Shown: in pieces, positions 17,475 through 51,879 of the stretch
Layout: every line of letters begins with the position of its first letter
Position numbering within the stretch: position 1 is the stretch's first letter
Source: Diphasiastrum complanatum
Lineage: Eukaryota > Streptophyta > Lycopodiopsida > Lycopodiales > Lycopodiaceae
Direction: 5' to 3'
Length of the DNA stretch: 64,000 nt
Assembly: GCA_029204225.1 (NCBI GenBank)
Contig: CM055107.1
Coordinates: 50,609,227 to 50,673,226 of the forward strand
Notes under the pieces: generated by a model
What the model saw: only the letters and a program-made list of their open reading frames with translations
Told to the model about the DNA's origin: nothing
Databases searched by the model: none
Position numbers and translations under genes: made by a program

Positions 17475-17491
17475 ATCATTTTTAGGAGGAG

Positions 17492-28989: not shown

Positions 28990-30454
28990 TCAATAATATC
29001 CATAAGGGTCTGGTGGCCATTCCGGATAACCTTGTTCATTGACAATTGGATAGTCGAGATATGCCCTCGGAGGATCCCAAGATAAATCTTGCTGAGATAA
29101 GGGATCCTCATAGATCGGCGCAACTGGTCCCAATGTCATGGACTCCCCCAAATCATAATGTGGATATGACGTGCTTGCTTGATGCTCTTGTCTATCCAGG
29201 TATTCATGGTATGCCATAACCTGACGACTTTCCTCAGCAGTCAATATCATAGATTTAGGACAAGGCTTTGTCATTGTAGGTTCTAGTTCATGCTGTGCAG
29301 TTGGCCATTTTGGGCTTGGATTCCCTGGATTTGGCCATCTAAGCAATGTGATGTGCTGATGTAGCTTTGTGGTGGCCAGATGTTGAGTGGAACATTCCGA
29401 CTGTGGTTGGATCTTGCTTATGATTGGCATTGAAATCAGAGGACAATCTCCCACCTTAGTCTTTCCTTTCTCAATGGACTGCTCTCTTGAAGGTGGTACA
29501 GATGGATCGTTGCGTCGATTGGTAGTCAGTTTGCCTTCAAGTTGCGTGGTTGATGTGAGGCCCCTTTGTAGTTCATCCACCAGAAGTTGTTGCAGCATTT
29601 GTTTAATGAGGCTTGGTAAAATCTGCTGGATTGCATCTGTTGCCAATTTCTTGACTTCTTCCGCTACCCCTGGTTGGCTAGATTTTACCCACTCTGTCTT
29701 TTGTGGTGTTGGTGATTCACGCGTGGCCGTGTCAACTTGTTTTAGGATCCTTCTCTCATTCCTTCCATCCGCATCTGCTTTGTAACCAAGTGGCACTAGA
29801 AGTTTGCATTTGTAGTGCAACTTCTCGGTTGGTGGATTTGCATGGTCATATGTAGGTTGCCGATTCAAGCAGGTAGGAGTCATAACGGCTTTTCTTGTAT
29901 CTCTTAGTGGACAATCATGACATGGGTGATTGATGCCGCATTCTTCATACCAAGGATAAAAGGAGGACAGATCATTTTGGTGTGGACATTCTGATCTATG
30001 ATGTTTACCTCCACATTCGAAACACTGTACCGTGTGTAAGATTCTATCACCTCTCAATTGATGCACGTACACTGGTATCAGGTCTCCTTTGATCCCTTCC
30101 ACGTAATATAGTGGTGAGCTAGTTTGAACTTCCCCTGCCTGGGATGGTCTGCTCGCTGAAATAACCAATACTTCCACCGAACCTTGTCTAGCCACTAGAG
30201 AAGATTCTGAAAGTTCTAAGACCGATCCATTTTCTTTGGAGGAGCGATCTAATGGCAAGCTAGATGGCATAGATGAGAGTTTTGTTGATTGATTTCCAGT
30301 CTCTAGAATTTCCTTATTGGATCGATTTCGTAATCTCGGATTCCAAACTGGACATTGAGGTGTTGGATGTTTTCCAAAAAAATAATGGCACTCGTCTAGT
30401 GGTCGGATCTTTCGATTGGCAATTTGTGGTTCTGGGAGGTAATCAGATTGACTG
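28990..30454 (-). pseudogene. Gypsy-type gag, C-terminal half, split by the E array
   Basis: A long open minus frame with Cys/His clusters: DECHYFFGKHPTPQCP (near 30370), QCFECGGKHHRSECP and EECGINHPCHDCPLR. These look like three variant zinc knuckles with spacing unlike the canonical CCHC. A long Gln/Pro-rich acidic tail ends in EWPPDPYGYY-stop at 28990. When one GACTG copy and the array are left out, the frame continues without interruption from the gag at 49239, so the two halves were one gene. The assignment as gag rests on the N-terminal half. Confidence 0.75.
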
Positions 30455-31109
30455 TGTGAAAAATACAGATCCTAAGTGGATCTAAACTCCAAGATCATTG
30501 GCTTGAATGCTTGCACTCCAAACTACATAAGCTAGGAATTGGCAACACATTCTATGCTACCTAGAATGCAAAGAACTTGATCAAAAAGCATTTATCACAA
30601 ATGGAAACTTCCATAAACATCAAGTGCGACCCAAAATAGCATTATACAGTCCATAATACATCAGCCTATCACTTTTGGAAAGCACCTAAGATCATACACA
30701 ATAGCTTGAAGACAATACACACAACAATGCTCTCAATGGAGGAAGAAACAATGACAATGATCTATTGATCTCAATGAAGCATACAAAAGGTTTCTCCAAC
30801 CTGTTCTCCACGACTTCCCTACTATTTATGGATGAGGAAGATGACTCTCTCTCCTCTCTCTAGAAGGTACTTGACCCTAGATATTCCCTATATAGGAAAA
30901 ATAGCTAAAAATGGCTTATATGACCAAAATACATCAAAATGGTCTCATTTTGAAGGGTATGAAGTTTGACACTTCATCATACTGAAAAAATACAGTAAAT
31001 AAAAACATTGTGGCCTGGTTCACACGTGTGAAACTCCAGAACCAAAACTATTTACAATTTTAGCCAATTTAGGCCTCAAACTAGCTAGGAAATGTTGACA
31101 ATTTTCACA
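30455..31109 (-). repeat. E array LTR 1 (outer 3' LTR)
   Basis: 655 bp, minus strand TGTGAAAATTG...ATTTTTCACA. Palindrome CACACGTGTG at 31021-31030, in U3 about 80 bases from the TG end. A TATA-like 'cataaatag' lies on the minus strand near 30830. Preceded in the minus direction by the purine tract GAAGAGGGAG. Confidence 0.95.
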
Positions 31110-33501
31110 CTCCCTCTTCAACATTGGATGCTAGTTTCAACATAGTCTTTGAGCACATTCCAAGATTAGATCTATGCATTAAATATAGGTCCTTTCCCAA
31201 TGGTTTGGTGAAGATATCAGCCACACACTCCTTTGAAGAGACATGTTGAAGCTCCACCTCTTTGGCAATGACTTGATCTCTCACAAAATGGTGAGCAATC
31301 TCAATGTGCTTGCTCCTTGCATGAAAAACAGGATTGCTTGCCAAGCTTTGGGCTGAAAGGTTATCACAAAGTATGATTGGAGTCTTCTCTGGTTCCAGCA
31401 AGTGAAGATCCAATAACATCCTCTTGATCCAAAGAATCTCCTTGGTGCATGTTGTTAATGCCTTGTACTCGGCTTCGGTGGAAGATAGAGAGATAGTTGG
31501 TTGCTTCTTTGATAGCCATGAGACCACTCCATCTCCAAGATAGATTGCAAAGGCACTTGTTGACTTCCTATCCATTTGATCACCTGCAAAATCTGAATCT
31601 GAAAATCCACAAAGGTTAGGTGTAGTACCTCCATACAAGATGCCAAAATCTCTAGATCCCGAGATGTATCTAAGTACTCTCTTTCCTAGCTTCCAATGAG
31701 CCTCACTAGGATCTTGCATAAATTGACTTAGTTTACCAACCACAAAGCTTAGATCAGGTCTTGTGATGGTTAACCATATAAGAGATCCTATTAGCTTTCT
31801 ATAGAGAGTAATGTCCTTGAAGGATCTTTCATTACTTCTTGTAGTTAGCTTTACATTTGATTCCATAGGAGTAGAAACAACTTTACAATCTTCCATATGA
31901 AACCTTTTTAGAATAGAGTTAACATACTTTTCTTGACATATGAATGTAGATTTAGAAGTTCTAATAATCTCTATTCCTAAGATATAATGAAGTTTACCAA
32001 GATCTTGAATTTCAAACTCTCTTTTGAGTGCCATCTTGATTTCATCTATATCTAGATTGTTACCACCACTTAAGATAATGTCATCAACATAGATCAAAAG
32101 TAAAGTGATATCATTTTCATTCAATCTAAAGTAGAGAGAATGATCATACTCACTCATAACAAAGTTTTGAGAAAGTAAGAAGGAATTGAGCTTAGCATAC
32201 CAACTCCTTGGTGCTTGCTTTAGCCCATACAAACTCTTTTGGAGATAGCACACATGATTAGGCTCATCATGTGAAACATAGCCCTCGGGTTGCTCCATGT
32301 AAATATTTTCTTCAAGATCACCATTCAAGAAGGCATTAGTAACAGCCATTTGCCACATATCCCAATCATAAAGAGTTGCAAGAGAGATTAGGATTCGAAT
32401 AGTTACCATCTTTGCCACGGGTGCAAAGGTCTCATCATAGTCAATACCATATTCTTGAGCATACCCCTTTGCCACCAACCTTGCCTTGTACTTGTTGATT
32501 GATCCATCTTGATTTGTCTTGATCTTGAAGATCCACTTACAACCAATTGCCTTCTTGTCCTTTGGAAGCTTTACCAACCTCCATGTGTTGCTTTTGATGA
32601 GTGCTTGATGCTCATGATCCATGGCTTGGATCCATTCCTTCTTTTGAATTGCTTCACCTACACAAGTTGGTTCATCAAAAGAGGTAAGAAAAGCAAAGTT
32701 AGAGTTGTCCACCACTTGCTTTCCTTTTTCATCATAGGTTAGCCTTGATGGCTTAGCCCTTTGCCTTTGAGTCTTCCTTGAAGTTTGCTTTGGAGTGGCA
32801 TATCCATCTTCATCCAAGACATCTTGCACATCATGATGATTAGTAGGCACATCAACATCAACATCAACAACATTGGAAACATTCTCTTCATGAAAGATGA
32901 CATCCCTACTTATGACAACTTTCTTTGTAGAAGGAATGTACACTTTGTAAGCCTTGCTTACTTCACTATAGCCAACAAACACACCCTTCTTTGATGAAGG
33001 ATCTTCTTTAGTTCTATCATCAAGTGTGATATTGACAAAACATGTACATCCAAAGATCCTACAATGCTTGACACTCGGCCTTCTACCATAAAGAACCTCA
33101 TGAGGAGTTTTACCATCCAAGGAAGCACTTGTCCATCTATTACATAGATAGTTAGCACATGCTAAAGCTTCCCCCCAAAAAGACTTAGCAAGATTAGCAT
33201 GTAGTCTCATTGCCTTGGCACATTCACAAAGGGTTCTATTCTTTCTCTCGGCCACTCCATTCTGTTGTGGAGTCCTAGGACTAGACATCTCCCTCTTAAT
33301 CCCATGTGCTATACAAAAGTCTTTGAACCTATTTGAGGTGTATTCCCCTCCATTATCAGATCTTAAGCATTTGATCTTTGTATTGAATTGGTTTTCCATT
33401 TCATTCTTGAACTTGACAAATGCAGCAAACACTTCATCCTTACTTTTAAGAAGATAGATCCAAGTATACCTACTAAAGTCATCAATGAAAGTTGCATACA
33501 T
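31105..33501 (-). pseudogene. Truncated E pol, unit 1 (integrase core to RNase H)
   Basis: 798 codons, equal to residues 520-1317 of the full E polyprotein, from MYATFIDDFSRY to VEEGV. It lacks gag, protease and the first integrase Asp, and there is no leader or primer site. Compared with the full copy, at least four residues differ: D753Y, K827R, D905A and D918N (full-copy numbering). D905 is the first catalytic Asp of RT motif A (QMDVTNAF), here QMAVTNAF, so RT should be dead although YVDD is kept. An ATG is present but there is no evidence that it is used. Confidence 0.92.
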
Positions 33502-33549
33502 CTTTGCCCCACCATTGCTAGTTGTACTAGAAGAATGAATATCAGAATG
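33502..33549 (-). other. Deletion junction: LTR end fused to integrase
   Basis: The minus strand of LTR 2 ends TTTTTCACA and the next bases are TTCTGATATTC, the codons for the integrase HSDIH region. In the full copy this site reads GTGCATTCTGATATTC. The join is therefore at the exact LTR terminus with CA shared. The same junction occurs at 36597-36644. Confidence 0.88.
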
Positions 33550-34204
33550 TGTGAAAAATACAGATCCTAAGTGGATCTAAACTCCAAGATCATTGGCTTG
33601 AATGCTTGCACTCCAAACTACATAAGCTAGGAATTGGCAACACATTCTATGCTACCTAGAATGCAAAGAACTTGATCAAAAAGCATTTATCACAAATGGA
33701 AACTTCCATAAACATCAAGTGCGACCCAAAATAGCATTATACAGTCCATAATACATCAGCCTATCACTTTTGGAAAGCACCTAAGATCATACACAATAGC
33801 TTGAAGACAATACACACAACAATGCTCTCAATGGAGGAAGAAACAATGACAATGATCTATTGATCTCAATGAAGCATACAAAAGGTTTCTCCAACCTGTT
33901 CTCCACGACTTCCCTACTATTTATGGATGAGGAAGATGACTCTCTCTCCTCTCTCTAGAAGGTACTTGACCCTAGATATTCCCTATATAGGAAAAATAGC
34001 TAAAAATGGCTTATATGACCAAAATACATCAAAATGGTCTCATTTTGAAGGGTATGAAGTTTGACACTTCATCATACTGAAAAAATACAGTAAATAAAAA
34101 CATTGTGGCCTGGTTCACACGTGTGAAACTCCAGAACCAAAACTATTTACAATTTTAGCCAATTTAGGCCTCAAACTAGCTAGGAAATGTTGACAATTTT
34201 CACA
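33550..34204 (-). repeat. E array LTR 2
   Basis: 655 bp; no difference from LTR 1 seen by eye. Palindrome at 34116-34125. It serves as 3' LTR of unit 2 and is fused upstream to unit 1, without primer site. Confidence 0.95.
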
Positions 34205-36596
34205 CTCCCTCTTCAACATTGGATGCTAGTTTCAACATAGTCTTTGAGCACATTCCAAGATTAGATCTATGCATTAAATATAGGTCCTTTCCCAATGGTT
34301 TGGTGAAGATATCAGCCACACACTCCTTTGAAGAGACATGTTGAAGCTCCACCTCTTTGGCAATGACTTGATCTCTCACAAAATGGTGAGCAATCTCAAT
34401 GTGCTTGCTCCTTGCATGAAAAACAGGATTGCTTGCCAAGCTTTGGGCTGAAAGGTTATCACAAAGTATGATTGGAGTCTTCTCTGGTTCCAGCAAGTGA
34501 AGATCCAATAACATCCTCTTGATCCAAAGAATCTCCTTGGTGCATGTTGTTAATGCCTTGTACTCGGCTTCGGTGGAAGATAGAGAGATAGTTGGTTGCT
34601 TCTTTGATAGCCATGAGACCACTCCATCTCCAAGATAGATTGCAAAGGCACTTGTTGACTTCCTATCCATTTGATCACCTGCAAAATCTGAATCTGAAAA
34701 TCCACAAAGGTTAGGTGTAGTACCTCCATACAAGATGCCAAAATCTCTAGATCCCGAGATGTATCTAAGTACTCTCTTTCCTAGCTTCCAATGAGCCTCA
34801 CTAGGATCTTGCATAAATTGACTTAGTTTACCAACCACAAAGCTTAGATCAGGTCTTGTGATGGTTAACCATATAAGAGATCCTATTAGCTTTCTATAGA
34901 GAGTAATGTCCTTGAAGGATCTTTCATTACTTCTTGTAGTTAGCTTTACATTTGATTCCATAGGAGTAGAAACAACTTTACAATCTTCCATATGAAACCT
35001 TTTTAGAATAGAGTTAACATACTTTTCTTGACATATGAATGTAGATTTAGAAGTTCTAATAATCTCTATTCCTAAGATATAATGAAGTTTACCAAGATCT
35101 TGAATTTCAAACTCTCTTTTGAGTGCCATCTTGATTTCATCTATATCTAGATTGTTACCACCACTTAAGATAATGTCATCAACATAGATCAAAAGTAAAG
35201 TGATATCATTTTCATTCAATCTAAAGTAGAGAGAATGATCATACTCACTCATAACAAAGTTTTGAGAAAGTAAGAAGGAATTGAGCTTAGCATACCAACT
35301 CCTTGGTGCTTGCTTTAGCCCATACAAACTCTTTTGGAGATAGCACACATGATTAGGCTCATCATGTGAAACATAGCCCTCGGGTTGCTCCATGTAAATA
35401 TTTTCTTCAAGATCACCATTCAAGAAGGCATTAGTAACAGCCATTTGCCACATATCCCAATCATAAAGAGTTGCAAGAGAGATTAGGATTCGAATAGTTA
35501 CCATCTTTGCCACGGGTGCAAAGGTCTCATCATAGTCAATACCATATTCTTGAGCATACCCCTTTGCCACCAACCTTGCCTTGTACTTGTTGATTGATCC
35601 ATCTTGATTTGTCTTGATCTTGAAGATCCACTTACAACCAATTGCCTTCTTGTCCTTTGGAAGCTTTACCAACCTCCATGTGTTGCTTTTGATGAGTGCT
35701 TGATGCTCATGATCCATGGCTTGGATCCATTCCTTCTTTTGAATTGCTTCACCTACACAAGTTGGTTCATCAAAAGAGGTAAGAAAAGCAAAGTTAGAGT
35801 TGTCCACCACTTGCTTTCCTTTTTCATCATAGGTTAGCCTTGATGGCTTAGCCCTTTGCCTTTGAGTCTTCCTTGAAGTTTGCTTTGGAGTGGCATATCC
35901 ATCTTCATCCAAGACATCTTGCACATCATGATGATTAGTAGGCACATCAACATCAACATCAACAACATTGGAAACATTCTCTTCATGAAAGATGACATCC
36001 CTACTTATGACAACTTTCTTTGTAGAAGGAATGTACACTTTGTAAGCCTTGCTTACTTCACTATAGCCAACAAACACACCCTTCTTTGATGAAGGATCTT
36101 CTTTAGTTCTATCATCAAGTGTGATATTGACAAAACATGTACATCCAAAGATCCTACAATGCTTGACACTCGGCCTTCTACCATAAAGAACCTCATGAGG
36201 AGTTTTACCATCCAAGGAAGCACTTGTCCATCTATTACATAGATAGTTAGCACATGCTAAAGCTTCCCCCCAAAAAGACTTAGCAAGATTAGCATGTAGT
36301 CTCATTGCCTTGGCACATTCACAAAGGGTTCTATTCTTTCTCTCGGCCACTCCATTCTGTTGTGGAGTCCTAGGACTAGACATCTCCCTCTTAATCCCAT
36401 GTGCTATACAAAAGTCTTTGAACCTATTTGAGGTGTATTCCCCTCCATTATCAGATCTTAAGCATTTGATCTTTGTATTGAATTGGTTTTCCATTTCATT
36501 CTTGAACTTGACAAATGCAGCAAACACTTCATCCTTACTTTTAAGAAGATAGATCCAAGTATACCTACTAAAGTCATCAATGAAAGTTGCATACAT
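34200..36596 (-). pseudogene. Truncated E pol, unit 2
   Basis: The 798-codon product is identical to that of unit 1, including the D905A change in RT motif A. It is therefore a duplicate of unit 1 and not an independent deletion. Same lack of gag, protease and primer site. Confidence 0.92.
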
Positions 36597-36644
36597 CTTT
36601 GCCCCACCATTGCTAGTTGTACTAGAAGAATGAATATCAGAATG

Positions 36645-37299
36645 TGTGAAAAATACAGATCCTAAGTGGATCTAAACTCCAAGATCATTGGCTTGAATGC
36701 TTGCACTCCAAACTACATAAGCTAGGAATTGGCAACACATTCTATGCTACCTAGAATGCAAAGAACTTGATCAAAAAGCATTTATCACAAATGGAAACTT
36801 CCATAAACATCAAGTGCGACCCAAAATAGCATTATACAGTCCATAATACATCAGCCTATCACTTTTGGAAAGCACCTAAGATCATACACAATAGCTTGAA
36901 GACAATACACACAACAATGCTCTCAATGGAGGAAGAAACAATGACAATGATCTATTGATCTCAATGAAGCATACAAAAGGTTTCTCCAACCTGTTCTCCA
37001 CGACTTCCCTACTATTTATGGATGAGGAAGATGACTCTCTCTCCTCTCTCTAGAAGGTACTTGACCCTAGATATTCCCTATATAGGAAAAATAGCTAAAA
37101 ATGGCTTATATGACCAAAATACATCAAAATGGTCTCATTTTGAAGGGTATGAAGTTTGACACTTCATCATACTGAAAAAATACAGTAAATAAAAACATTG
37201 TGGCCTGGTTCACACGTGTGAAACTCCAGAACCAAAACTATTTACAATTTTAGCCAATTTAGGCCTCAAACTAGCTAGGAAATGTTGACAATTTTCACA
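36645..37299 (-). repeat. E array LTR 3
   Basis: 655 bp, identical to the others by eye; palindrome at 37211-37220. It is the 3' LTR of the full-length unit. Confidence 0.95.
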
Positions 37300-40200
37300 C
37301 TCCCTCTTCAACATTGGATGCTAGTTTCAACATAGTCTTTGAGCACATTCCAAGATTAGATCTATGCATTAAATATAGGTCCTTTCCCAATGGTTTGGTG
37401 AAGATATCAGCCACACACTCCTTTGAAGAGACATGTTGAAGCTCCACCTCTTTGGCAATGACTTGATCTCTCACAAAATGGTGAGCAATCTCAATGTGCT
37501 TGCTCCTTGCATGAAAAACAGGATTGCTTGCCAAGCTTTGGGCTGAAAGGTTATCACAAAGTATGATTGGAGTCTTCTCTGGTTCCAGCAAGTGAAGATC
37601 CAATAACATCCTCTTGATCCAAAGAATCTCCTTGGTGCATGTTGTTAATGCCTTGTACTCGGCTTCGGTGGAAGATAGAGAGATAGTTGGTTGCTTCTTT
37701 GATAGCCATGAGACCACTCCATCTCCAAGATAGATTGCAAAGGCACTTGTTGACTTCCTATCCATTTGATCACCTGCAAAATCTGAATCTGAAAATCCAC
37801 AAAGGTTAGGTGTAGTACCTCCATACAAGATGCCAAAATCTCTAGATCCCGAGATGTATCTAAGTACTCTCTTTCCTAGCTTCCAATGAGCCTCACTAGG
37901 ATCTTGCATAAATTGACTTAGTTTACCAACCACAAAGCTTAGATCAGGTCTTGTGATGGTTAACCATATAAGAGATCCTATTAGCTTTCTATAGAGAGTA
38001 ATGTCCTTGAAGGATCTTTCATTACTTCTTGTAGTTAGCTTTACATTTGATTCCATAGGAGTAGAAACAACTTTACAATCTTCCATATGAAACCTTTTTA
38101 GAATAGAGTTAACATACTTTTCTTGACATATGAATGTAGATTTAGAAGTTCTAATAATCTCTATTCCTAAGATATAATGAAGTTTACCAAGATCTTGAAT
38201 TTCAAACTCTCTTTTGAGTGCCATCTTGATTTCATCTATATCTAGATTGTTACCACCACTTAAGATAATGTCATCAACATAGATCAAAAGTAAAGTGATA
38301 TCATTTTCATTCAATCTAAAGTAGAGAGAATGATCATACTCACTCATAACAAAGTTTTGAGAAAGTAAGAAGGAATTGAGCTTAGCATACCAACTCCTTG
38401 GTGCTTGCTTTAGCCCATACAAACTCTTTTGGAGATAGCACACATGATTAGGCTCATCATGTGAAACATAGCCCTCGGGTTGCTCCATGTAAATATCTTC
38501 TTCAAGATCACCATTCAAGAAGGCATTAGTAACATCCATTTGCCACATATCCCAATCATAAAGAGTTGCAAGAGAGATTAGGATTCGAATAGTTACCATC
38601 TTTGCCACGGGTGCAAAGGTCTCATCATAGTCAATACCATATTCTTGAGCATACCCCTTTGCCACCAACCTTGCCTTGTACTTGTTGATTGATCCATCTT
38701 GATTTGTCTTGATCTTGAAGATCCACTTACAACCAATTGCCTTCTTGTCCTTTGGAAGCTTTACCAACTTCCATGTGTTGCTTTTGATGAGTGCTTGATG
38801 CTCATGATCCATGGCTTGGATCCATTCCTTCTTTTGAATTGCTTCACCTACACAAGTTGGTTCATCAAAAGAGGTAAGAAAAGCAAAGTTAGAGTTGTCC
38901 ACCACTTGCTTTCCTTTTTCATCATAGGTTAGCCTTGATGGCTTAGCCCTTTGCCTTTGAGTCTTCCTTGAAGTTTGCTTTGGAGTGGCATCTCCATCTT
39001 CATCCAAGACATCTTGCACATCATGATGATTAGTAGGCACATCAACATCAACATCAACAACATTGGAAACATTCTCTTCATGAAAGATGACATCCCTACT
39101 TATGACAACTTTCTTTGTAGAAGGAATGTACACTTTGTAAGCCTTGCTTACTTCACTATAGCCAACAAACACACCCTTCTTTGATGAAGGATCTTCTTTA
39201 GTTCTATCATCAAGTGTGATATTGACAAAACATGTACATCCAAAGATCCTACAATGCTTGACACTCGGCCTTCTACCATAAAGAACCTCATGAGGAGTTT
39301 TACCATCCAAGGAAGCACTTGTCCATCTATTACATAGATAGTTAGCACATGCTAAAGCTTCCCCCCAAAAAGACTTAGCAAGATTAGCATGTAGTCTCAT
39401 TGCCTTGGCACATTCACAAAGGGTTCTATTCTTCCTCTCGGCCACTCCATTCTGTTGTGGAGTCCTAGGACTAGACATCTCCCTCTTAATCCCATGTGCT
39501 ATACAAAAGTCTTTGAACCTATTTGAGGTGTATTCCCCTCCATTATCAGATCTTAAGCATTTGATCTTTGTATTGAATTGGTTTTCCATTTCATTCTTGA
39601 ACTTGACAAATGCAGCAAACACTTCATCCTTACTTTTAAGAAGATAGATCCAAGTATACCTACTAAAGTCATCAATGAAAGTTGCATACATCTTTGCCCC
39701 ACCATTGCTAGTTGTACTAGAAGAATGAATATCAGAATGCACAAGTTGAAAAGCTTCTTTAGATCTAGAAGTAGATCTAGAATAAGCAAGTCTATGAGAT
39801 TTGGACAAGGCACAATGTTCACAAACACTATTGTTTGCAACAAGACTTTTAGGGAGACCAAGAACAAGCTCTTTCTTTGCCATTACCTCCAAAGATTTGA
39901 AGTTGGGATGGCCCAACCTCTTGTGCCAAACTTCTTGGTTTGTCAATTGCTCCCTAGCCATACATCCTTCATGATTAGAGATCACACATGCATCAAGCTT
40001 GAAAAGTTTACCATGCCTCCTACCTTGAGCAATCAAGGATCCACATTTACTTATCAAACATGCATCTCCAATGAACTCCACATCAAGTCCTTTGTCAATC
40101 ATTTGACTTACACTAAGCAAATTCTTAGTGATTGAAGGAATGTACAAAACATTTTCAAGATTTGCTTTCCTATTTGTTGAAAGGGAAATAGGAATAGTGC

Positions 40201-41248
40201 CTATGCCTTTGATGTCACATTGACCATCATTTGCAGTGTAGATGATGTTACCTTCTCCCTCATAAGACAATAAGGATGTAAAGTATTCCTTATGTCTTGT
40301 CATGTGAGATGAGGCTCCGCTATCAATCCACCAAGGATCATTATCATCTATGTTGGCTAACAAACTTGAAGTCATAACAAGTGATTCACATGTGTTATGT
40401 TCTTCCTCATCTATTGTAAGATTTCCTTGCCTCTCTCCTTGCTCTCTTTTCTTCTTATAACATTCATTTGCAAAATGACCTTTTATCCCACAATAAAAGC
40501 ACTTGAACTTTGACTTATTGTTCTTAGTAGAAGAGGAAGAGGAAGAGTGATCATCATGATCAAAGTTACCACCTTTGGACCATTTCCCTTTGCCTTTACC
40601 TTTGCCCTTGAATTTGCCTTTTGTGAAGAAAGCCTCTTCACCTCCACCTTGCAAGGATGCACCATCAAGCTTTGATTGCAACCTATGTTCTTCAGCCAAT
40701 AAGATTTCTTGCAAGTCAACCACACTTGGCAAGACTCTTTGAATGGCAAAACTTTGCACAAGGTTAGCATGTTCATTTAGCAAACCATTCAACATAACTT
40801 GGACTATTTCACCATCTTTTATGTTCTCATCAATGCATGCTAAATCATCACTTAGGGACTTAACTCTCAAGATAAATGCATGAGCACTTTCACCCTCTCT
40901 TTGCCTACTAGAAAATATTTGTCTCCTTAGGGTCAATACCCTAGATGTGGACTTTGATTCAAAGAGCTTCTTTAAGGCATTCCATGCCTCACTTGCACTT
41001 TGACACTTTCCAACTTCCTTGAGAAGTTCATTTGTAACATTCATTTTAATGATATGAAGAGCCCTTTTGGCCTTCTTATCAAACCTTTGTTGCTCTTGAA
41101 GTGTGAGAGGTCTCTCTTCAATTTCTGCAACTATGTCCATGAGTTCATTCAACTCAAGTAAGGACTCCATCCTCACTTTCCAAGTAGAGTAGTTTGATGA
41201 ACTCAACCTTTCACTAGACTCTAGCATGATCCCACCATTGGAAGCCAT
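37295..41248 (-). CDS. Full-length copia E gag-pol polyprotein
   Basis: An uninterrupted 1317-codon polyprotein for Ty1/copia retrotransposition. Order: gag (about 1-245); CCHC knuckle C250-C263 (CFYCGIKGHFANEC); protease DSGA with Asp309; integrase zinc-binding H442/H447 and C476/C479; integrase triad D506, D568, E604; RT motif A D905 and YVDD at 990-993; RNase H D1154, E1195, D1232. The length is usual for a plant copia gag-pol in one frame. The start is the first ATG, giving MASNGG, in line with the gag starts of C, F and N2. The final codons overlap the polypurine tract (GAA GAG GGA G), and the TGA stop uses LTR bases. It appears competent in coding. Its leader is interrupted by F. Confidence 0.95.
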   Translation of the reverse strand: MASNGGIMLESSERLSSSNYSTWKVRMESLLELNELMDIVAEIEERPLTLQEQQRFDKKAKRALHIIKMNVTNELLKEVGKCQSASEAWNALKKLFESKSTSRVLTLRRQIFSSRQREGESAHAFILRVKSLSDDLACIDENIKDGEIVQVMLNGLLNEHANLVQSFAIQRVLPSVVDLQEILLAEEHRLQSKLDGASLQGGGEEAFFTKGKFKGKGKGKGKWSKGGNFDHDDHSSSSSSTKNNKSKFKCFYCGIKGHFANECYKKKREQGERQGNLTIDEEEHNTCESLVMTSSLLANIDDNDPWWIDSGASSHMTRHKEYFTSLLSYEGEGNIIYTANDGQCDIKGIGTIPISLSTNRKANLENVLYIPSITKNLLSVSQMIDKGLDVEFIGDACLISKCGSLIAQGRRHGKLFKLDACVISNHEGCMAREQLTNQEVWHKRLGHPNFKSLEVMAKKELVLGLPKSLVANNSVCEHCALSKSHRLAYSRSTSRSKEAFQLVHSDIHSSSTTSNGGAKMYATFIDDFSRYTWIYLLKSKDEVFAAFVKFKNEMENQFNTKIKCLRSDNGGEYTSNRFKDFCIAHGIKREMSSPRTPQQNGVAERKNRTLCECAKAMRLHANLAKSFWGEALACANYLCNRWTSASLDGKTPHEVLYGRRPSVKHCRIFGCTCFVNITLDDRTKEDPSSKKGVFVGYSEVSKAYKVYIPSTKKVVISRDVIFHEENVSNVVDVDVDVPTNHHDVQDVLDEDGDATPKQTSRKTQRQRAKPSRLTYDEKGKQVVDNSNFAFLTSFDEPTCVGEAIQKKEWIQAMDHEHQALIKSNTWKLVKLPKDKKAIGCKWIFKIKTNQDGSINKYKARLVAKGYAQEYGIDYDETFAPVAKMVTIRILISLATLYDWDMWQMDVTNAFLNGDLEEDIYMEQPEGYVSHDEPNHVCYLQKSLYGLKQAPRSWYAKLNSFLLSQNFVMSEYDHSLYFRLNENDITLLLIYVDDIILSGGNNLDIDEIKMALKREFEIQDLGKLHYILGIEIIRTSKSTFICQEKYVNSILKRFHMEDCKVVSTPMESNVKLTTRSNERSFKDITLYRKLIGSLIWLTITRPDLSFVVGKLSQFMQDPSEAHWKLGKRVLRYISGSRDFGILYGGTTPNLCGFSDSDFAGDQMDRKSTSAFAIYLGDGVVSWLSKKQPTISLSSTEAEYKALTTCTKEILWIKRMLLDLHLLEPEKTPIILCDNLSAQSLASNPVFHARSKHIEIAHHFVRDQVIAKEVELQHVSSKECVADIFTKPLGKDLYLMHRSNLGMCSKTMLKLASNVEEGV

Positions 41249-41824
41249 GATTCTAATGTTTCTTCAACTTTTAGGTTTTGTCCTAAAGCACTTAGCACTC
41301 ACTTTTCTCTCAACAAATGATAGATAAAGAGATCTATGAAGATTTAGGACCCTAAAACACTTCTATCTTGAACCTAGATGGTTTCCAAGCATAGAAAGGA
41401 AGATTGAAACACATGCAACACTTTGCACACACTAAGAATGGATTACAAAATCAAACCAACCTGAACACACTCTTGCTTAAGCTCTCAAACTTTCCAGCAA
41501 GTGACCAAATCAAGTTATGGTGTGAAGAGTTACTTGCATTCTTAGAAAATACCCAAAACTAGGATGCCAAGATTACCTAGTAATGAACAAACTTGATCAA
41601 CATATGATCAACACACTAAGATATTGATTCAACCTGTAAAACCACATGTAAACCACACTTCTAAAAGTTTATAAACTCCAGCAAGTGATAAATACAAGAT
41701 TTAGAGGTGAATGAATGAGCACACTTAGTGAATCACAAGACTAGCTTCACTATCTTGTCAAATCTTGGTGTTTAGATGTAGATCTAAGATCACTTCACAT
41801 GAGAATGTTCCTCAACCTGTTAAG
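41249..41824 (-). other. E leader, gag-proximal part
   Basis: 576 untranslated bases upstream of the E gag ATG, ending at the TTAAG duplicate (41820-41824) where F is inserted. No coding content. Confidence 0.8.
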
Positions 41825-42506
41825 TGTAAAAATTACAGCAAATAAGGATCCTAAAACACTTGAAATGATGAGGGAAACAATAGATTATGATTTCATAAGA
41901 TTAGCACAAGTTGAACCATCAAAATCCATCAAAAATCTATGCTTGAACCTCACTAAATGGCCCAAATCCTTGAAGAAGGCTTCACACGTGTGAAAGTACG
42001 GCCTCCCACAGTCTGAGTACTGTACACCAGACCTACATTCAATCCTATAATCATTATTAATCACAAGTACTCAAACAATTATGAACATAGAGAGCAATTG
42101 CACCATTATGAGAGAAAACTCATGAAATTGCTTGATTGATTTTGGTGAGATATCATCACCTATATATACATGATCCATCACGGTTTTGGGCAGGTATGAG
42201 TAGCCCTAAACCTATCCCTAATGCTAATTTTGGTGGATCTTTCATCCCTACCAAGTTAGGGTTGGAATCTTGGAGATCCCTCAACAATGCAAAAATTACC
42301 AAAAATAGCTCCTATTTTTTCTCCCTTGTATCTAAGCATAATTTGGACTCATTCCAAAGGTTCTAACACTTAGGTCTACTTGAGAACATCCTTATGAATG
42401 GAATCCTATGCTATTTGGCACGTGTAACAAGCCACATCATGACCATCTAACTATTTACAAGTCATATGACCAAAACTAGTCAAGCTAGAATTGTGAATTT
42501 TTAACA
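41825..42506 (-). repeat. 3' LTR of element F
   Basis: 682 bp, minus strand TGTTAAAAATTCAC...GTAATTTTTACA. TATA-like TGTATATATAGG on the minus strand at about 42160-42170. Palindrome CACACGTGTG at 41983-41992. Transcription starting here would read toward the E gag-pol ATG. Confidence 0.95.
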
Positions 42507-42520
42507 CTCCTCCTCACTAT

Positions 42521-45500
42521 CTAGCTTGGTTCAATCATTGCTTTACTAATCACTCCAAGTGATGATCTGAACTTCATAAAAGGTGTCTTTTGAAGTGGTT
42601 TAGTAAGTAGATCAGCTACACATTCATTGCTTGGAACATGCTCCAAAGCAATCTCCTTGGCTTGCACCATTTCTCTCACAAAGTGATGGCATATCTCAAT
42701 GTGCTTAGATCTTGCATGGAAGATTGGGTTAGATGCAAGGTGTTGGGCTGATATATTGTCATTGTAGATGATTGGTGCCTCCTCTGAATCCATGATCTTT
42801 AGTTCCACCAATAATCTCTTGATCCAAAGTACCTCCTTTGTAGTGGTTGTCAAAGCTTTGTACTCGGCCTCGGTTGAAGATAAAGATATAGTTTCTTGCT
42901 TTTTTGAAAGCCATGAAACCACACCTTCTCCTATGAAAGTTGAATAGGCACTTGTTGATTTCCTATCCCTCTTGTCCCCTGCAAAATCTGAATCACTAAA
43001 TGCATGAAGGTTAATCACATCTCCTCTATATAGAATCCCAAAATCCAATGTACCCGAGATGTATCTTAGAATCCTCTTAGCCTTTTTCCAATGGATATTC
43101 AATGGCTTTTGCATGGATTGGCTCAACCTACATACACTAAAGCTAAGATCTGGTCTAGTTATAGTGATCCACATTAAGGAACCTATAAGTTGCCTAAACA
43201 AAGTGATGTCCATGAAGGATCTTTCATCATCTTCATTTGGCACTTTTACATCTTGCTCCATTGGTGTGTCAACACTTTTGCATACTTCCATCTTAAACTT
43301 CTTCAAAATACTTTGAGCATAGTTTACTTGACTTATAAAGATAAAATCAGACCCTCTAAGTACTTCTATGCCTAAGATGAAGTGAAGACACCCTAGATCT
43401 ACCATCTTGAACTCTAAGGATAGATCTATCTTGATTTTTTCAATACCATCAACACTATTTCCACTAATGATGATGTCATCTACATAAATGAGTAAAAGTA
43501 CAATACCAACATCATCAAACTTAATGTAAAGAGTGGGATCATATTCACTTTGAACAAAAGAAAGTGAAATAAGATAGCAATGTAGTCTTGAATTCCAAGA
43601 TCTCGAGGCTTGCTTCAAGCCATAGATGCTTCTTTGGAGATGGCATACTTTGTTCTCCATTCCATGCTTGATGAACCCTTGTGGCTGCTCCATATAGATA
43701 TCCTCTTCCAAAAAACCATTCAAGAAAGCATTAGAGACATCCATTTGACATAGAATCCATCCAAAAAGTGATGCAAGTGCAATGATTAGTCTTATTGTGA
43801 CCATCTTGGCCACGGGTGCAAAAGTTTCCTCATAGTCTATCCCTCTCTCTTGAGCATAACCTTTTGCAACTAATCTTGCTTTATGTTTGTTAACACTCCC
43901 ATTTGCATTCAACTTAAGCTTGAAGACCCACTTGCATCCTATTACATTACTTTGAGGTCTCTCAACAAGCAACCAAGTTTCATTCTCAATCAAGGCATCA
44001 TACTCATCCAACATAGCTTTATACCATTCTTTGGAGTTCAATGCATCTTCAACATTAGACGGTTCTTCAAAACTAGATAAAGCATAAGAAGTGGATGATA
44101 TACCCTCAACTTGCTGTCCTTTGCCTTGATATGTGAGCCTTGATGGCTCCACTTTTGCCCTTGAAGATCTCCTTGGTGTGATAGGTGGGTTTGGTGCTTG
44201 CTCCTCCATGAGCTCCTCCTCAAAACCAAGATCTTGCTCCTCGGCCATCTTCTTCTTGATTGTTGGAGCACTTGAGCCTTCTTCAAGCATATGCATATGA
44301 TGTTCATCAAAGATGACATCCCTTGAAACAACAAATTTGTTCAAGGATGGGAGATAGACTTTGTAGCCCTTGCTTGAGCTTGCATATCCAAGCATGATCC
44401 CTCTTGTGGAAGATGGATCCTCCTTGGTTCTTGTTTCCAATGGCACATGCACATAACATATACACCCAAAAACTTTCAAGTGATTAAGATTGGGTTTCTT
44501 TCCATACAACATCTCATAAGGAGTTTTGCCTTCAATTGCTTTGCAAGACACCCTATTCATCAAGTAGTTTGCACATACAAGAGACTCACCCCAAAAGGAT
44601 TTGGGCAAACAAGCATCTAATCTTAAAGCCTTAGAACATTCACATAATGTTCTATTCCTTCTTTCAGCAACTCCATTTTGTTGAGGAGTGTAAGGACAAG
44701 AAGTCTCTTTCTTGATCCCTTCCTCCTCACAAAAGGCCTTGAACTCATTGGAGATGAATTCTCCACCATTGTCACTTCTAAGAATCTTGATGCTATGATT
44801 ATGATGCTTTTCCACAAACAACTTGAACTTTACAAAAGTATCAAATACTTGAGACTTGAAGGAAAGTAAGAACACCCAACAATATCTTGAGTAGTCATCA
44901 ATGAAGGTTAAAAACATGGATGAACCTCCATTAGATTTGGTGCTAGCAATGTGCACATCCGAGTGTATGAGTTCAAGAGGATGAGATGACTTTGTGATGG
45001 AGTTAGGAAACACCTTCTTATGTGCCTTGGATAAGGCACAAGCTTCACAAACCTTGTCTTCCTTCCCAATAGACCTTGGTAGGCCTAAAGCATACTCCTC
45101 CTTGATCATAGCCTCCATGGAACCCGAGTTGACATGTCCAAGTCTTTTGTGCCATAAAGTAAAGGTAGATATCTTGCTCTTCTCGGCCAACATGACAACA
45201 TTAGTATCCACAAATGCATCCAGCTTATAAAGTTTGCCAAGTCTAGTGCCCTTAGCCACTATCTTACCCTTCTTCTTGATGAAACATTCATTTGAAGCAA
45301 AGTCAACATTGAAACCATTGTCTACCATTTGGCCAACACTTAGTAGATTCTTTGTTATTGTAGGAATGTACAAAACACCTTCTATGTTGATCTTTTTGGA
45401 AGATCCTAAGCAAAGGGGAATGCTACCAACTCCTTCAATCTTACAAGCTTCATCATTTGCTGTATAGATAGACTTTATAGGTCCATCATAAGATAAGAGA

Positions 45501-46489
45501 GAAGAGAAAAACTCCCTTTTACTAGTCATGTGTGAACTAGCACCCGAGTCAATCCACCAAGGATCTTCTCCTTTGAAGCTTGTTGAAGAAAATATGGACA
45601 TCATGAGAGAGTCCTCATGTGAACTCTCCTCCTCCTCCTCTTTGCTCATGTTGGCTTGGCTTTGATCTTGCTTCCTCTTGAGGCATTCCGAGGCATAATG
45701 CCCCATCTTGCTACAATAGTAGCACTTCACCTTTGATTTGTCCTTCTTGACTTTGGTGGTTGATGGAGATGCCTTTGGGGGTCCTTCTTGATCCTCAATC
45801 TTTGTAGACTTCTTGAATGTTGATCCTTTGCCTTTGGACTTGCCTTTGCCTTTGGTGAAGAGAGCTTGGTCATCTCCACCTTGGATGGAAAGCCTATCCA
45901 TCCTCTCTTGCATTTGGCTCCTTCTTGATTCCTCGGCCATGAGCGTGCCTTGGAGTTCTTCAAGTATGGGTAGCTTACCCATAATTGCATATCCCTGAAC
46001 CAAATTGTCAAATTCAAAGCTTAGTCCATTCAATATGAGTTGAACAAGCTCTTCATCCTTGATAGGGTCACCTATAAAGGCTAGCTCTTTGTTCAATTCC
46101 TTTACTCTTAGGACAAAAGTATGTGCACTCTCTCCTTTCTTTTGATAGCTTCTATAGATTTGGTTCTTCAAAGCTAACATTCTAGTTTGGTTCTTGGATT
46201 CATAGACCTTTTGCAAAGTCTCCCAAGCATCTTGAGCTGAAGTGCAGTCTCCTACCTCTCTTAAGAGTTCATTTGCAACATTCATTTTTATGCAATGTAG
46301 TGCAACATTGCACCTCTTGATGTATTTGGCTTTTTCTTGAGGATGAATAGGTTCACCCTCCTTACCATTTACAATTTCCATCAGATCTTGCATGATCATG
46401 ATAGATTCCATTCTAACTTTCCATATGGAATAGTTAGTTTTGTTGAGCCTTTCATTAGTATCCAAAAGATATGCATTTATAGATGCCAT
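42521..46489 (-). CDS. Full-length copia F gag-pol polyprotein
   Basis: An uninterrupted 1322-codon copia polyprotein. Order: gag starting MASINAYLLDTNERL; CCHC knuckle C256-C269 (CYYCSKMGHYASEC); protease DSGA with Asp314; integrase zinc-binding HKRLGH...CEACA; integrase core HSDVH, LRSDNGGEF and PQQNGVAERRNR; RT with QMDVSNAFLNG and YVDD; RNase H with SDSDFAGD, TEAEYKAL and NDNISAQ. All catalytic residues expected of the family are visible. The stop lies 14 bases before the 3' LTR, with the polypurine tract between. Together with near-identical LTRs and a clean target duplication this is the best candidate for a currently or recently active element. Confidence 0.96.
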   Translation of the reverse strand: MASINAYLLDTNERLNKTNYSIWKVRMESIMIMQDLMEIVNGKEGEPIHPQEKAKYIKRCNVALHCIKMNVANELLREVGDCTSAQDAWETLQKVYESKNQTRMLALKNQIYRSYQKKGESAHTFVLRVKELNKELAFIGDPIKDEELVQLILNGLSFEFDNLVQGYAIMGKLPILEELQGTLMAEESRRSQMQERMDRLSIQGGDDQALFTKGKGKSKGKGSTFKKSTKIEDQEGPPKASPSTTKVKKDKSKVKCYYCSKMGHYASECLKRKQDQSQANMSKEEEEESSHEDSLMMSIFSSTSFKGEDPWWIDSGASSHMTSKREFFSSLLSYDGPIKSIYTANDEACKIEGVGSIPLCLGSSKKINIEGVLYIPTITKNLLSVGQMVDNGFNVDFASNECFIKKKGKIVAKGTRLGKLYKLDAFVDTNVVMLAEKSKISTFTLWHKRLGHVNSGSMEAMIKEEYALGLPRSIGKEDKVCEACALSKAHKKVFPNSITKSSHPLELIHSDVHIASTKSNGGSSMFLTFIDDYSRYCWVFLLSFKSQVFDTFVKFKLFVEKHHNHSIKILRSDNGGEFISNEFKAFCEEEGIKKETSCPYTPQQNGVAERRNRTLCECSKALRLDACLPKSFWGESLVCANYLMNRVSCKAIEGKTPYEMLYGKKPNLNHLKVFGCICYVHVPLETRTKEDPSSTRGIMLGYASSSKGYKVYLPSLNKFVVSRDVIFDEHHMHMLEEGSSAPTIKKKMAEEQDLGFEEELMEEQAPNPPITPRRSSRAKVEPSRLTYQGKGQQVEGISSTSYALSSFEEPSNVEDALNSKEWYKAMLDEYDALIENETWLLVERPQSNVIGCKWVFKLKLNANGSVNKHKARLVAKGYAQERGIDYEETFAPVAKMVTIRLIIALASLFGWILCQMDVSNAFLNGFLEEDIYMEQPQGFIKHGMENKVCHLQRSIYGLKQASRSWNSRLHCYLISLSFVQSEYDPTLYIKFDDVGIVLLLIYVDDIIISGNSVDGIEKIKIDLSLEFKMVDLGCLHFILGIEVLRGSDFIFISQVNYAQSILKKFKMEVCKSVDTPMEQDVKVPNEDDERSFMDITLFRQLIGSLMWITITRPDLSFSVCRLSQSMQKPLNIHWKKAKRILRYISGTLDFGILYRGDVINLHAFSDSDFAGDKRDRKSTSAYSTFIGEGVVSWLSKKQETISLSSTEAEYKALTTTTKEVLWIKRLLVELKIMDSEEAPIIYNDNISAQHLASNPIFHARSKHIEICHHFVREMVQAKEIALEHVPSNECVADLLTKPLQKTPFMKFRSSLGVISKAMIEPS

Positions 46490-47287
46490 CTAGTCTCCTA
46501 ATCAAGGACTTGACACAAATGAAGGTTACTTCTATTGATTTGATTGAAGGTCTACCTTATCCCACTTCTTAGGGACCTGAAAAGATCAGTAATAGACTTC
46601 CTATAAAGATCTAAGAATGATCTCTAACAAAATCAAATCATAGAATACTAGAAACAATGCACTTGCTTGATTGAAGTAGACAATACTAGTAGAATTGCCC
46701 CTCTTTCTATAAAGAACATTAAAGCTTCCAAATGATCTGATCAAGAGTGAATTTCAGCAACCTAATATACTTCCAAAATCACTTGTAAAAGATCTAAATG
46801 GAACTTAATGAGGATGCAACACAATCTACTATCCAATCACAAGCAAAAAATGATCAAAATTGATGAAAATTTGATCTAATTTGGTGCATAAGTCAAGCAA
46901 TGGTTGGACTGAACCTAAATCACTTTAGGAGGTGCCTACTACACCTTAGAACAGCCTTGAAGAGTCCCCAAAACTCTGATCTTCCCTCTCCTTGAATGCT
47001 AGAAAGCCTTCTCTATGAAATCACCTCCAAAACTCGCTTAGAAATCAATGCTTGGAGCAAGCAAAACTTGCTATCTTGATAATGTGAATTGAATTCAACT
47101 TTGCCTCTGGTTTTAGACACCTAAACACCTGCAAATGAAGTCACACAACACCAATCTCAAATGTATTTGACTCACTTTGAGTTCTAGAATCAATACTAGA
47201 TGCTAAGATCCAATCTACACAAGATTTAGATCAAAAATTGTGATCAAATTGAATGCAAACCAAGGATTTAGCTCATTTCAGCCTTTA
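46490..47287 (-). other. 5' leader of element F
   Basis: About 800 untranslated bases between primer site and gag ATG; no coding content recognised. Confidence 0.8.
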
Positions 47288-47300
47288 GGCTCTGATACCA
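47288..47300 (-). promoter_or_regulatory. Primer-binding site of element F
   Basis: The minus strand reads TGGTATCAGAGCC directly after the LTR end ATTTTTACA. tRNA-iMet type. Confidence 0.93.
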
Positions 47301-47982
47301 TGTAAAAATTACAGCAAATAAGGATCCTAAAACACTTGAAATGATGAGGGAAACAATAGATTATGATTTCATAAGATTAGCACAAGTTGAACCATCAAAA
47401 TCCATCAAAAATCTATGCTTGAACCTCACTAAATGGCCCAAATCCTTGAAGAAGGCTTCACACGTGTGAAAGTACGGCCTCCCACAGTCTGAGTACTGTA
47501 CACCAGACCTACATTCAATCCTATAATCATTATTAATCACAAGTACTCAAACAATTATGAACATAGAGAGCAATTGCACCATTATGAGAGAAAAATCATG
47601 AAATTGCTTGATTGATTTTGGTGAGATATCATCACCTATATATACATGATCCATCACGGTTTTGGGCAGGTATGAGTAGCCCTAAACCTATCCCTAATGC
47701 TAATTTTGGTGGATCTTTCATCCCTACCAAGTTAGGGTTGGAATCTTGGAGATCCCTCAACAATGCAAAAATTACCAAAAATAGCTCCTATTTTTTCTCC
47801 CTTGTATCTAAGCATAATTTGGACTCATTCCAAAGGTTCTAACACTTAGGTCTACTTGAGAACATCCTTATGAATGGAATCCTATGCTATTTGGCACGTG
47901 TGACAAGCCACATCATGACCATCTAACTATTTACAAGTCATATGACCAAAACTAGTCAAGCTAGAATTGTGAATTTTTAACA
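47301..47982 (-). repeat. 5' LTR of element F
   Basis: 682 bp; palindrome at 47459-47468. Differs from the 3' LTR at two sites: 'gaaaaatcatg' against 'gaaaactcatg', and 'cacgtgtgac' against 'cacgtgtaac'. Confidence 0.95.
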
Positions 47983-48570
47983 TTAAGAACCTGAAAACAC
48001 ACTTGCATAATGGTTAACACCTTCCAGCAAATGCTCCAATCAAATTACATAAGGAGAGTTACTTACATGCTCAACAAAGTACACCAAAATTTATGCCAAA
48101 ATTGATGACAATCTTTACAATATGCTCTTCACAATGGAGCTTACAATATGTTCACCCAAAAAAGGGGATCTTTCATCCAAATGGGAGCTTTGCTCAGCCT
48201 TTAGGAGAATTACAACTCACTCAAAAGAGCATTTGTCATCCACTTAAGGAGAAGTTTCATCCACTTAAGGAGAGTGTTCATCCAAGAATGGAGATTGTCA
48301 ACAATAGGATTGAAAAGAACATTGTTAGTATTGAATATGCACAAGCCTCACAATCACAAATGATTAGGTGTTACGATCTGATCCAAAATAGTTTCTTTTC
48401 AGCCTCTGATCTTCAATAGACCTGAAATATGCTTTTGATCCACAAGTTCAACTCACAAAACAAAGGTTAGTAAGATTTGATCAACAAAGCAATGCAAAAT
48501 CATGCTAGAACTTGATCAAACATCCAAATATCACCAAAAATGGAATACTTACTGTAAATAGAAGCCAACC
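47983..48570 (-). other. E leader, primer-proximal part
   Basis: 588 bases between the F insertion and the E primer site. Contains a local duplication, 'catccacttaaggaga' twice near 48237-48275. The plus-strand open frame at 48093-48419 lies in this leader and is not supported as a gene. Confidence 0.75.
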
Positions 48571-48583
48571 AGCTCTGATACCA
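48571..48583 (-). promoter_or_regulatory. Primer-binding site of full-length E
   Basis: The minus strand reads TGGTATCAGAGCT next to the LTR. This is the only primer site in the whole E array; units 1 and 2 have none. Confidence 0.92.
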
Positions 48584-49238
48584 TGTGAAAAATACAGATC
48601 CTAAGTGGATCTAAACTCCAAGATCATTGGCTTGAATGCTTGCACTCCAAACTACATAAGCTAGGAATTGGCAACACATTCTATGCTACCTAGAATGCAA
48701 AGAACTTGATCAAAAAGCATTTATCACAAATGGAAACTTCCATAAACATCAAGTGCGACCCAAAATAGCATTATACAGTCCATAATACATCAGCCTATCA
48801 CTTTTGGAAAGCACCTAAGATCATACACAATAGCTTGAAGACAATACACACAACAATGCTCTCAATGGAGGAAGAAACAATGACAATGATCTATTGATCT
48901 CAATGAAGCATACAAAAGGTTTCTCCAACCTGTTCTCCACGACTTCCCTACTATTTATGGATGAGGAAGATGACTCTCTCTCCTCTCTCTAGAAGGTACT
49001 TGACCCTAGATATTCCCTATATAGGAAAAATAGCTAAAAATGGCTTATATGACCAAAATACATCAAAATGGTCTCATTTTGAAGGGTATGAAGTTTGACA
49101 CTTCATCATACTGAAAAAATACAGTAAATAAAAACATTGTGGCCTGGTTCACACGTGTGAAACTCCAGAACCAAAACTATTTACAATTTTAGCCAATTTA
49201 GGCCTCAAACTAGCTAGGAAATGTTGACAATTTTCACA
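48584..49238 (-). repeat. E array LTR 4 (outer 5' LTR)
   Basis: 655 bp, identical to LTR 1 on line-by-line reading; palindrome at 49150-49159. Followed by the GACTG duplication at 49239-49243. Confidence 0.95.
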
Positions 49239-49784
49239 GACTGCACATCTCATCTGTGTCACTGACAACTTGCATCTGATCGTCCGTGTTACTAGTACTT
49301 TGGTTAGCGTTGTTTGTGGCATCTTGTGGATCAGATGCTCTATCATCCCTGATTGTTTGAATGTTGGATATGGGTTGTGATGGTGTGTGCAAGATCTGTG
49401 CTTCTGCAATAGCGGCTATCTTACAAAGTTCGTTTGGACTGGTATATGTTGTAAAGGGTGACATACCAATCTTGATCTTGTGCAATAATCCGGCATAGAA
49501 AAATGCCATTTTGTGGTGACTAGGAAGAACGGAATTCCAATCTCTGCCATCTTGGCAAATCGTGCAGTGTAGCCCTTGAGAGTTTCTCCGGAAAGCATCG
49601 AGATTTGGGCAAGCTGCTCATACATTGTTATGGCCTGTTGTGTGCAAGATGAAGATGATATGGAGTTATGTGGTGATGTACAAGAGAGAGATTGGGAAAT
49701 GTAGTTTTTGAAATGTGTATTAGGGAATTGATGATGAAGAGATGGAAGAGAAAAAGAAAAGCAAAAATATTCCTTTGTCTAGTG
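49239..49784 (-). pseudogene. Gypsy-type gag, N-terminal half
   Basis: The minus frame reads TQQAITMYEQLAQISMLSG, TLKGYTARFAKMAE, and after a one-base shift near 49510 MAFFYAGLLHKIKIGMSP and CKIAAIAEAQ. This follows the Retrotrans_gag pattern of Ty3/gypsy (a Tyr-x2-Arg-Phe core, then an FxxGL motif). It runs in frame into the junction at 49239 and continues at 30454. Upstream of about 49700 the sequence no longer reads as gag, and copia Q begins near 49785. Confidence 0.78.
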
Positions 49785-51020: not shown

Positions 51021-51196
51021 TAAGAAGAGAAATTATGATTCTAATTGACACCATCTTTGCAACTGGGACAAAGGTCTCCTCATAATCAAGTCCATATACT
51101 TGAGCAAATCCTTTGGCACAAAGCCTAGCCTTGTACTTGTTGATTGTGCCATCTTGATTATACTTGACTCAAAAAACCCATTTGCAACCAATGTAT
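51021..51196 (-). pseudogene. RT fragment of the A/C copia family
   Basis: 176 bases closely matching 1815-1990 of element A (minus), from TIGCKWVF to the start of motif A. It joins Q at 51020 and is interrupted by the solo F LTR at 51197. Confidence 0.85.
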
Positions 51197-51879
51197 TGTA
51201 AAAATTACAGCAAATAAGGATCCTAAAACACTTGAAATGATGAGGGAAACAATAGATTATGATTTCATAAGATTAGCACAAGTTGAACCATCAAAATCCA
51301 TCAAAAATCTATGCTTGAACCTCACTAAATGGCCCAAATCCTTGAAGAAGGCTTCACACGTGTGAAAGTACGGCCTCCCACAGTCTGAGTACTGTACACC
51401 AGACCTACATTCAATCCTATAATCATTAGTAATCACAAGTACTCAAACAATTATGAACATAGAGAGCAATTGCACCATTATGAGAGAAAAAAACATGAAA
51501 TTGCTTGATTGATTTTGGTGAGATATCATCACCTATATATACATGATCCATCACGGTTTTGGGCAGGTATGAGTAGCCCTAAACCTATCCCTAATGCTAA
51601 TTTTGGTGTATCTTTCATCCCTACCAAGTTAGGGTTGGAATCTTGGAGATCCCTCAACAATGCAAAAATTACCAAAAATAGCTCCTATTTTTTCTCCCTT
51701 GTATCTAAGCATAATTTGGACTCATTCCAAAGGTTCTAACACTTAGGTCTACTTGAGAACATCCTTATGAATGGAATCCTATGCTATTTGGCACGTGTGA
51801 CAAGCCACATCATGACCATCTAACTATTTACAAGTCATATGACCAAAACTAGTCAAGCTAGAATTGTGAATTTTTAACA
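51197..51879 (-). repeat. Solo LTR of family F, target duplication TGTAT
   Basis: A 683-bp LTR nearly identical to the F LTRs, with its palindrome at 51355-51364, flanked by TGTAT at 51192-51196 and 51880-51884. There is no interior. Orientation is the same as F. This shows a second F insertion followed by LTR-LTR recombination. Confidence 0.95.

Follow-up and report, generated by a model that had tools for sequence, protein, structure and literature searches.

A four-LTR array of a Ty1/copia retrotransposon in Diphasiastrum complanatum with joints between an LTR end and an internal site

Structure of the E array and its joints

The locus described here lies in a window of 64,000 nucleotides from Diphasiastrum complanatum (GenBank assembly GCA_029204225.1, contig CM055107.1, forward-strand positions 50,609,227 to 50,673,226) and comprises a tandem array of a long terminal repeat (LTR) retrotransposon, referred to as E. 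Four LTRs of 655 bp, which match letter for letter, separate three interiors (Table 1; all positions are those of the window). The 5-bp target-site duplication (TSD) GACTG was found at the outermost ends only and adjoins none of the internal LTRs. Unit 1 (30455-33549) equals unit 2 (33550-36644) over all 3095 bases, and the period continues into the full unit with five substitutions per 2440-bp interior. LTR identity, the exact period and the restriction of GACTG to the outer ends had each been claimed in an earlier, sequence-only reading, and were reproduced here. The length and identity of the repeats exclude a chance resemblance.

The same reading had counted three interiors between the four LTRs; it missed that E is coded on the minus strand, that two of the interiors are truncated rather than complete, and that a joint marks where they begin. 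In the sense of the element, the order is 5' LTR, full interior, LTR, 3' part, LTR, 3' part, LTR. Each short interior consists of the 3' 2440 bp of E, whose own interior measures 5121 bp, and is thus not a small complete interior. The LTRs have the form TG...CA, with adjoining primer-binding site (PBS) and polypurine tract (PPT); LTR 4 is flanked by the PBS, which presumably fits initiator tRNA-Met, and LTRs 1-3 by the PPT.

Table 1. Features of the E array and its nested element (positions in the window)
Feature	Position	Strand	Remark
TSD GACTG, left copy	30450..30454	.	
LTR 1, 3' end of array in element sense	30455..31109	-	identical to LTRs 2-4
Short interior 1	31110..33549	-	3' 2440 bp of E: most of integrase, reverse transcriptase, PPT; RNase H by position
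Joint 1	33545..33554	-	internal site fused to exact LTR end
LTR 2	33550..34204	-	
Short interior 2	34205..36644	-	identical to short interior 1
Joint 2	36640..36649	-	same as joint 1
LTR 3	36645..37299	-	3' LTR of full unit
Full interior of E	37300..48583	-	split by element F; 11284 bp
Gag-pol reading frame of E	37295-41248	-	1317 aa
Uninterrupted counterpart of joint site in full unit	39735..39744	-	about codon 504 of polyprotein
Nested copia element F with TSD TTAAG	41820..47987	-	
PBS TGGTATCAGAGC	48572..48583	-	directly beside LTR 4
LTR 4	48584..49238	-	5' LTR of full unit
TSD GACTG, right copy	49239..49243	.	

Both short interiors end at one and the same internal site, close to the start of the integrase core match (residues 499-597), where they are fused to the exact terminus of an LTR, while the full unit runs through this site uninterrupted. 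The short units consequently have no PBS side, and the two joints leave LTR borders that are neither PBS, PPT nor host DNA. Only the dinucleotide TG is common to the joint flank and the internal site. In the 1.745-Gb host assembly, a 27-base pattern spanning the joint (up to three mismatches) gave two matches, both of them in this array. A 27-base pattern for the uninterrupted site (up to two mismatches) gave 2426 + 2398 = 4824 matches, with none for a reversed control; this count was given as whole by the search output, counts for large families generally being treated as lower bounds, and it marks E as a very abundant family. Autointegration would leave a reciprocal product or an internal 5-bp duplication as well; only one side of the joint is present within the window, and the other side may have been lost.

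An exact LTR terminus joined to an internal site, as in autointegration, is the expected result of strand transfer by integrase or of the joining of a finished complementary DNA (cDNA) end. As exchange between LTRs and the normal one-LTR circle both leave PBS and PPT borders, neither makes the short units. Other sources of the joint were considered and rejected: duplication through a 5-bp microhomology at GACTG, as the internal site reads GAATG; a second plus-strand start at the internal site, as no PPT precedes it; and template switching in the R region, whose joints do not fall at the U5 end. GA(C/A)TGCACA is common to the outer and inner sites (8 of 9 positions), and 303 of 200000 random 25-mers match the outer site equally well. 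A target-site preference was discounted and the likeness taken as coincidence, GA(C/A)TG being seen in none of the 5-bp outer flanks or TSDs obtained for other copies.

The polyprotein of the full unit gave gag, integrase and reverse transcriptase (RT) matches in copia order (Pfam rve 499-597, RVT_2 824-1066). With integrase preceding RT in a single polyprotein, E is a Ty1/copia LTR retrotransposon, and its 5-bp TSD is in keeping with this group; among 12 other E copies, the flanks obtained revealed TSDs of 5 bp in nine, 4 bp in one (L010) and none in two (L015, L018). The 798-aa frame of the short units contains integrase (from profile position 27), a retroviral SH3-like domain and RT, and no gag match was returned for it by the Pfam search. 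From position and the usual order of the family, we take the short units to include RNase H and to lack protease.

The full interior is long because a second copia element, F (41825-47982), is inserted in its leader. The LTRs of F (682 bp; 41825-42506 and 47301-47982) differ at 2 of 682 bases, its frame of 1322 aa is uninterrupted, and its TSD TTAAG stands at 41820-41824 and 47983-47987; subtraction of F and one TSD copy yields the 5121 bp given above. F was absent at this place from all 18 E loci showing it (20 were fetched, the other two not showing the place). A solo LTR of F with TSD TGTAT was found at 51197-51879, beside an older E-like copia remnant (49771-51192). E itself is located within an open frame, with 488 codons to its left (28990-30454) that include a Cys/His knuckle-like stretch, and this frame was still open over the 50 codons tested across the joined flanks (49244 onward); no Pfam match was obtained for a 426-aa part of it.

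Comparison with other E copies, and surroundings of the array

A search of the assembly with the LTR (40 candidates scored, common words skipped) gave 41 rows, four of which were the array itself. Of the 37 others, 28 were fetched with context (20 longer loci and 8 in 7 regions), the 9 weaker or partial rows being left out. Ordinary PBS or PPT neighbours were found for 27 of these 28 LTRs (4 of the 28 are partial), the remaining LTR being truncated, with the loss of its terminus and of a few bases on the PPT side, and none of the 20 longer loci had an E match above 80% identity outward of the LTR. Full-length LTRs of these 20 loci were 99.2-99.85% identical to that of the array. The loci had 16 distinct flanks; E copies with common flanks at different places were L013/L028, L014/L015, L023/L024/L025/L031 and L010/L030, and the assembly therefore contains duplicated segments or alternative haplotypes.

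At the five sites where short and full units differ, all covering copies (18, 17, 18, 19 and 20 of 20) agree on one base each, from which the short units depart four times and the full unit once. Private changes were called solely at sites covered by at least five copies. Three of the four short-unit changes alter amino acids, and one hits an acidic RT residue, presumably catalytic, that is conserved in three of the four other copia frames that cover this position in the window. A 53-base pattern with two of the four changes was found genome-wide at two places, namely the two short units. Two further private changes were found in the rest of the full interior, one at a site with a coverage of just 10 copies, and none in the LTR, so that the full unit totals three in 5121 bp and the short part four in 2440 bp. 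No private change is common to short and full units, which therefore parted before, at or soon after insertion. Units 1 and 2, in contrast, have all four changes in common and are otherwise identical, so that one was copied from the other later. At a substitution rate of 1.3 × 10⁻⁸ per site per year, F would be about 0.11 million years old, the divergence of short and full units would date to about 0.08 million years, and the copying between units 1 and 2 to less than about 0.04 million years ago, all three being rough values that depend on this rate.

The LTRs were then compared between and within copies. For pair counts 16 copies were used, four loci (L015, L024, L025, L028) having been dropped as their flanks are common with others. 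Identical LTRs were seen in 1 of 120 pairs, and no copy (0 of 16) had an LTR equal to that of the array. When pairs with fewer than 1800 aligned interior bases were dropped (91 of 120 kept), 15 pairs had interiors whose divergence was roughly that of the array units or less (5.5 or fewer differences per 2440), and their LTRs differed at 2-7 sites. In all 12 copies for which the partner LTR was fetched, the array allele at LTR position 175 was present in the listed LTR only; the partners thereby revealed the search rows to be a biased sample, and we infer that the search was in effect seeded on this allele. A 34-base pattern with the allele occurs at 25 places in the genome, 4 being the array LTRs and 21 lying elsewhere, so that an allele which is rare in a family of thousands is nevertheless carried by all four LTRs of the array. 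Site 175 apart, the two LTRs of one copy differed at 0-5 bases (mean 2.75; 12 copies, two missing end bases of L043 excluded), and in 1 of 12 copies there was no difference. As identical LTRs were thus found in 1 of 12 cases within one insertion and in 1 of 120 between insertions, a single source for the four array LTRs is simplest. Mixed LTR haplotypes (position 215, 575 or 576) were observed between the two LTRs of the single copies L010, L015 and L016; together with the lack of a matching TSD at L015, they suggest exchange between E copies.

Elsewhere in the window, a tandem repeat (10232-10690; period about 135 bp, 3.4 copies, 75% matches) adjoins a copia remnant, and two pairs of long inverted copies face each other about 9-15 kb apart (37-1463 with 16589-18016, 95%; 2677-3996 with 13124-14419, 91%), with copia frames in or near them. 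Relatives in viral contigs were searched for and none was confirmed.

Origin of the array

The sequence-only reading had proposed that one insertion became a tandem array, and the presence of an outer TSD only, together with identical LTRs carrying a rare variant, still fits this best; the mechanisms it put forward, however, do not make short units. The explanation now favoured, to which we would give slightly less than an even chance, is that the joining of an LTR end to an interior created a three-LTR molecule, that this molecule integrated a single time and aged, and that its short unit was later duplicated. The finished U5 end of a full-length cDNA would have been joined, before or during integration, to an internal site of a second or truncated cDNA from the same source, the target being the start of the integrase core. 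Either integrase, through strand transfer within the molecule (autointegration) or into a sister cDNA, or the end-joining of cDNA may have made the joint, after which the outer LTR ends would have integrated normally at GACTG and generated one TSD. Following insertion, the short part would have acquired four changes and the full interior three, F would have entered the leader of the full part, and a later unequal exchange between LTRs or units would have duplicated the short interior with one LTR to give the order short-short-full. A joint made before integration and a single integration would together account for the TSD at the outer ends, the exactness of the joint, the identical LTRs and the lack of private changes common to short and full units. 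In its general form, that the multi-repeat structure began as a faulty DNA joint around the time of insertion and that one piece was recopied later, the account is probably correct. It is rather unlikely that the specific product was one of autointegration and yet no dead end, a self-joined molecule that entered the chromosome with a TSD of its own and gave rise to a growing tandem array.

Several points weigh against this favoured explanation. The position-175 variant probably arises repeatedly, given that all 12 copies have it on one side only, and homogenisation within the array could be an alternative cause of the LTR identity. Four unchanged LTRs beside seven changed interior sites are unusual even for one insertion. 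Nothing in the data points directly to a circle or a cDNA intermediate. The short part has more private changes per base than the full part, as would be expected if it were the older one, but this difference in density is not significant (one-sided p 0.16). Finally, about 43 random self-insertions, in either orientation, are expected from the 4824 sites, and a nested origin is accordingly not rare a priori.

Such a nested origin is the main rival, and is considered possible but unlikely. Here a second E would have entered, at GAATG, an older E of like orientation; recombination between LTRs would have removed the 5' part of the older element along with the other TSD copy of the inner one, and unequal LTR exchange would later have duplicated the short unit; the outer TSD would be that of the older element. 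This route draws on common events alone, places an exact LTR end at an internal site without loss of the outer TSD, and accounts for the apparently greater age of the short part. This explanation lost its favoured position once the LTRs had been compared: LTRs 1 and 3 would derive from different copies and yet be identical, as only 1 in 120 LTR pairs from separate copies is. Both also carry the variant that was found at just 21 places elsewhere in the genome. The route further requires gene conversion and an additional deletion.

Of the two mechanisms in the sequence-only reading, unequal exchange through LTRs cannot create the joint of the short units and can explain no more than the later gain of the second one. 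A one-LTR circle, which in its normal form gives complete interiors, could have contributed only as a truncated, autointegration-type circle of 3095 bp. Such a circle would have recombined with a resident E by way of its LTR, perhaps as a dimer, in which case both identical short units would have arisen in a single step. Circles with LTR-internal joints have been described from other LTR elements (PMC4751563, PMC9694575) and truncated copia circles from Arabidopsis mutants (PMC10462705). The LTR of the circle would nonetheless have to equal that of the resident, rare variant included, and capture of circles by homologous recombination is not seen here, leaving this origin improbable.

Assembly duplication of the second short unit, or of the whole array, is judged quite improbable. 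Units 1 and 2 do differ at 0 of 3095 bases, and several contigs with common flanks around other E copies point to duplicated stretches in the assembly; the pair of short-unit changes is found nowhere else in it, however, so that at least one short unit was not borrowed from another assembled copy. That the inserted element underwent a random tandem duplication in the chromosome, broken once inside the interior and once at the edge of an LTR, is very improbable: the 2 bp (TG) common at the break are compatible with it, but chance would have had to place the second break precisely at that edge, and the event would also have to be very early, no private change being common to short and full units.

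Comparison with known multi-LTR structures

In the sequence-only reading, arrays of this order (short-short-full) were said to be rarely documented base by base. Multi-LTR arrays, some with TSDs, are already in print. TSD-flanked three-LTR 'template-switching complexes', copia elements among them, were described in grasses (Sabot and Schulman 2007, PMC1950507). The E array resembles these in having several LTRs of the same orientation within one 5-bp TSD, highly similar outer LTRs and a reading as a single integration. It differs in that their cores are complete and joined via R regions, whereas the four-LTR E array has two truncated cores (2440 of 5121 bp) joined at an exact LTR end, and not two complete ones. 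LTR-LTR recombination complexes have no common flanking TSD (PMC1950507), in contrast to GACTG on both sides of the E array.

In maize, PMC4528315 describes Wukong arrays of three, four, six and seven LTRs, some with TSDs. Like Wukong and Cassandra (PMC7215508), E has three to many LTRs of the same orientation, with unequal exchange proposed as the amplifier. Those are small non-autonomous elements, the internal region of Wukong being intact, whereas E is a copia element with a gag-pol frame and truncated interiors. Autointegration circles (PMC4751563, PMC9694575) have an LTR end joined to an internal site and one LTR per unit, as here; they are extrachromosomal, while the joint of E is chromosomal and lies inside a normal TSD. 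In the literature searched (including PMC11054761, most subscription papers being outside its scope), the portions available describe no chromosomal array as built on an LTR-end-to-interior joint.

The present array is thus displayed base by base, with short units that stem from an LTR-end-to-interior joint and not from LTR exchange. If the autointegration reading is true, template switching is not the only process that can leave identical LTRs within an outer TSD, and, if such joints are common, internal joints need checking before an outer TSD and like LTRs are read as template switching.

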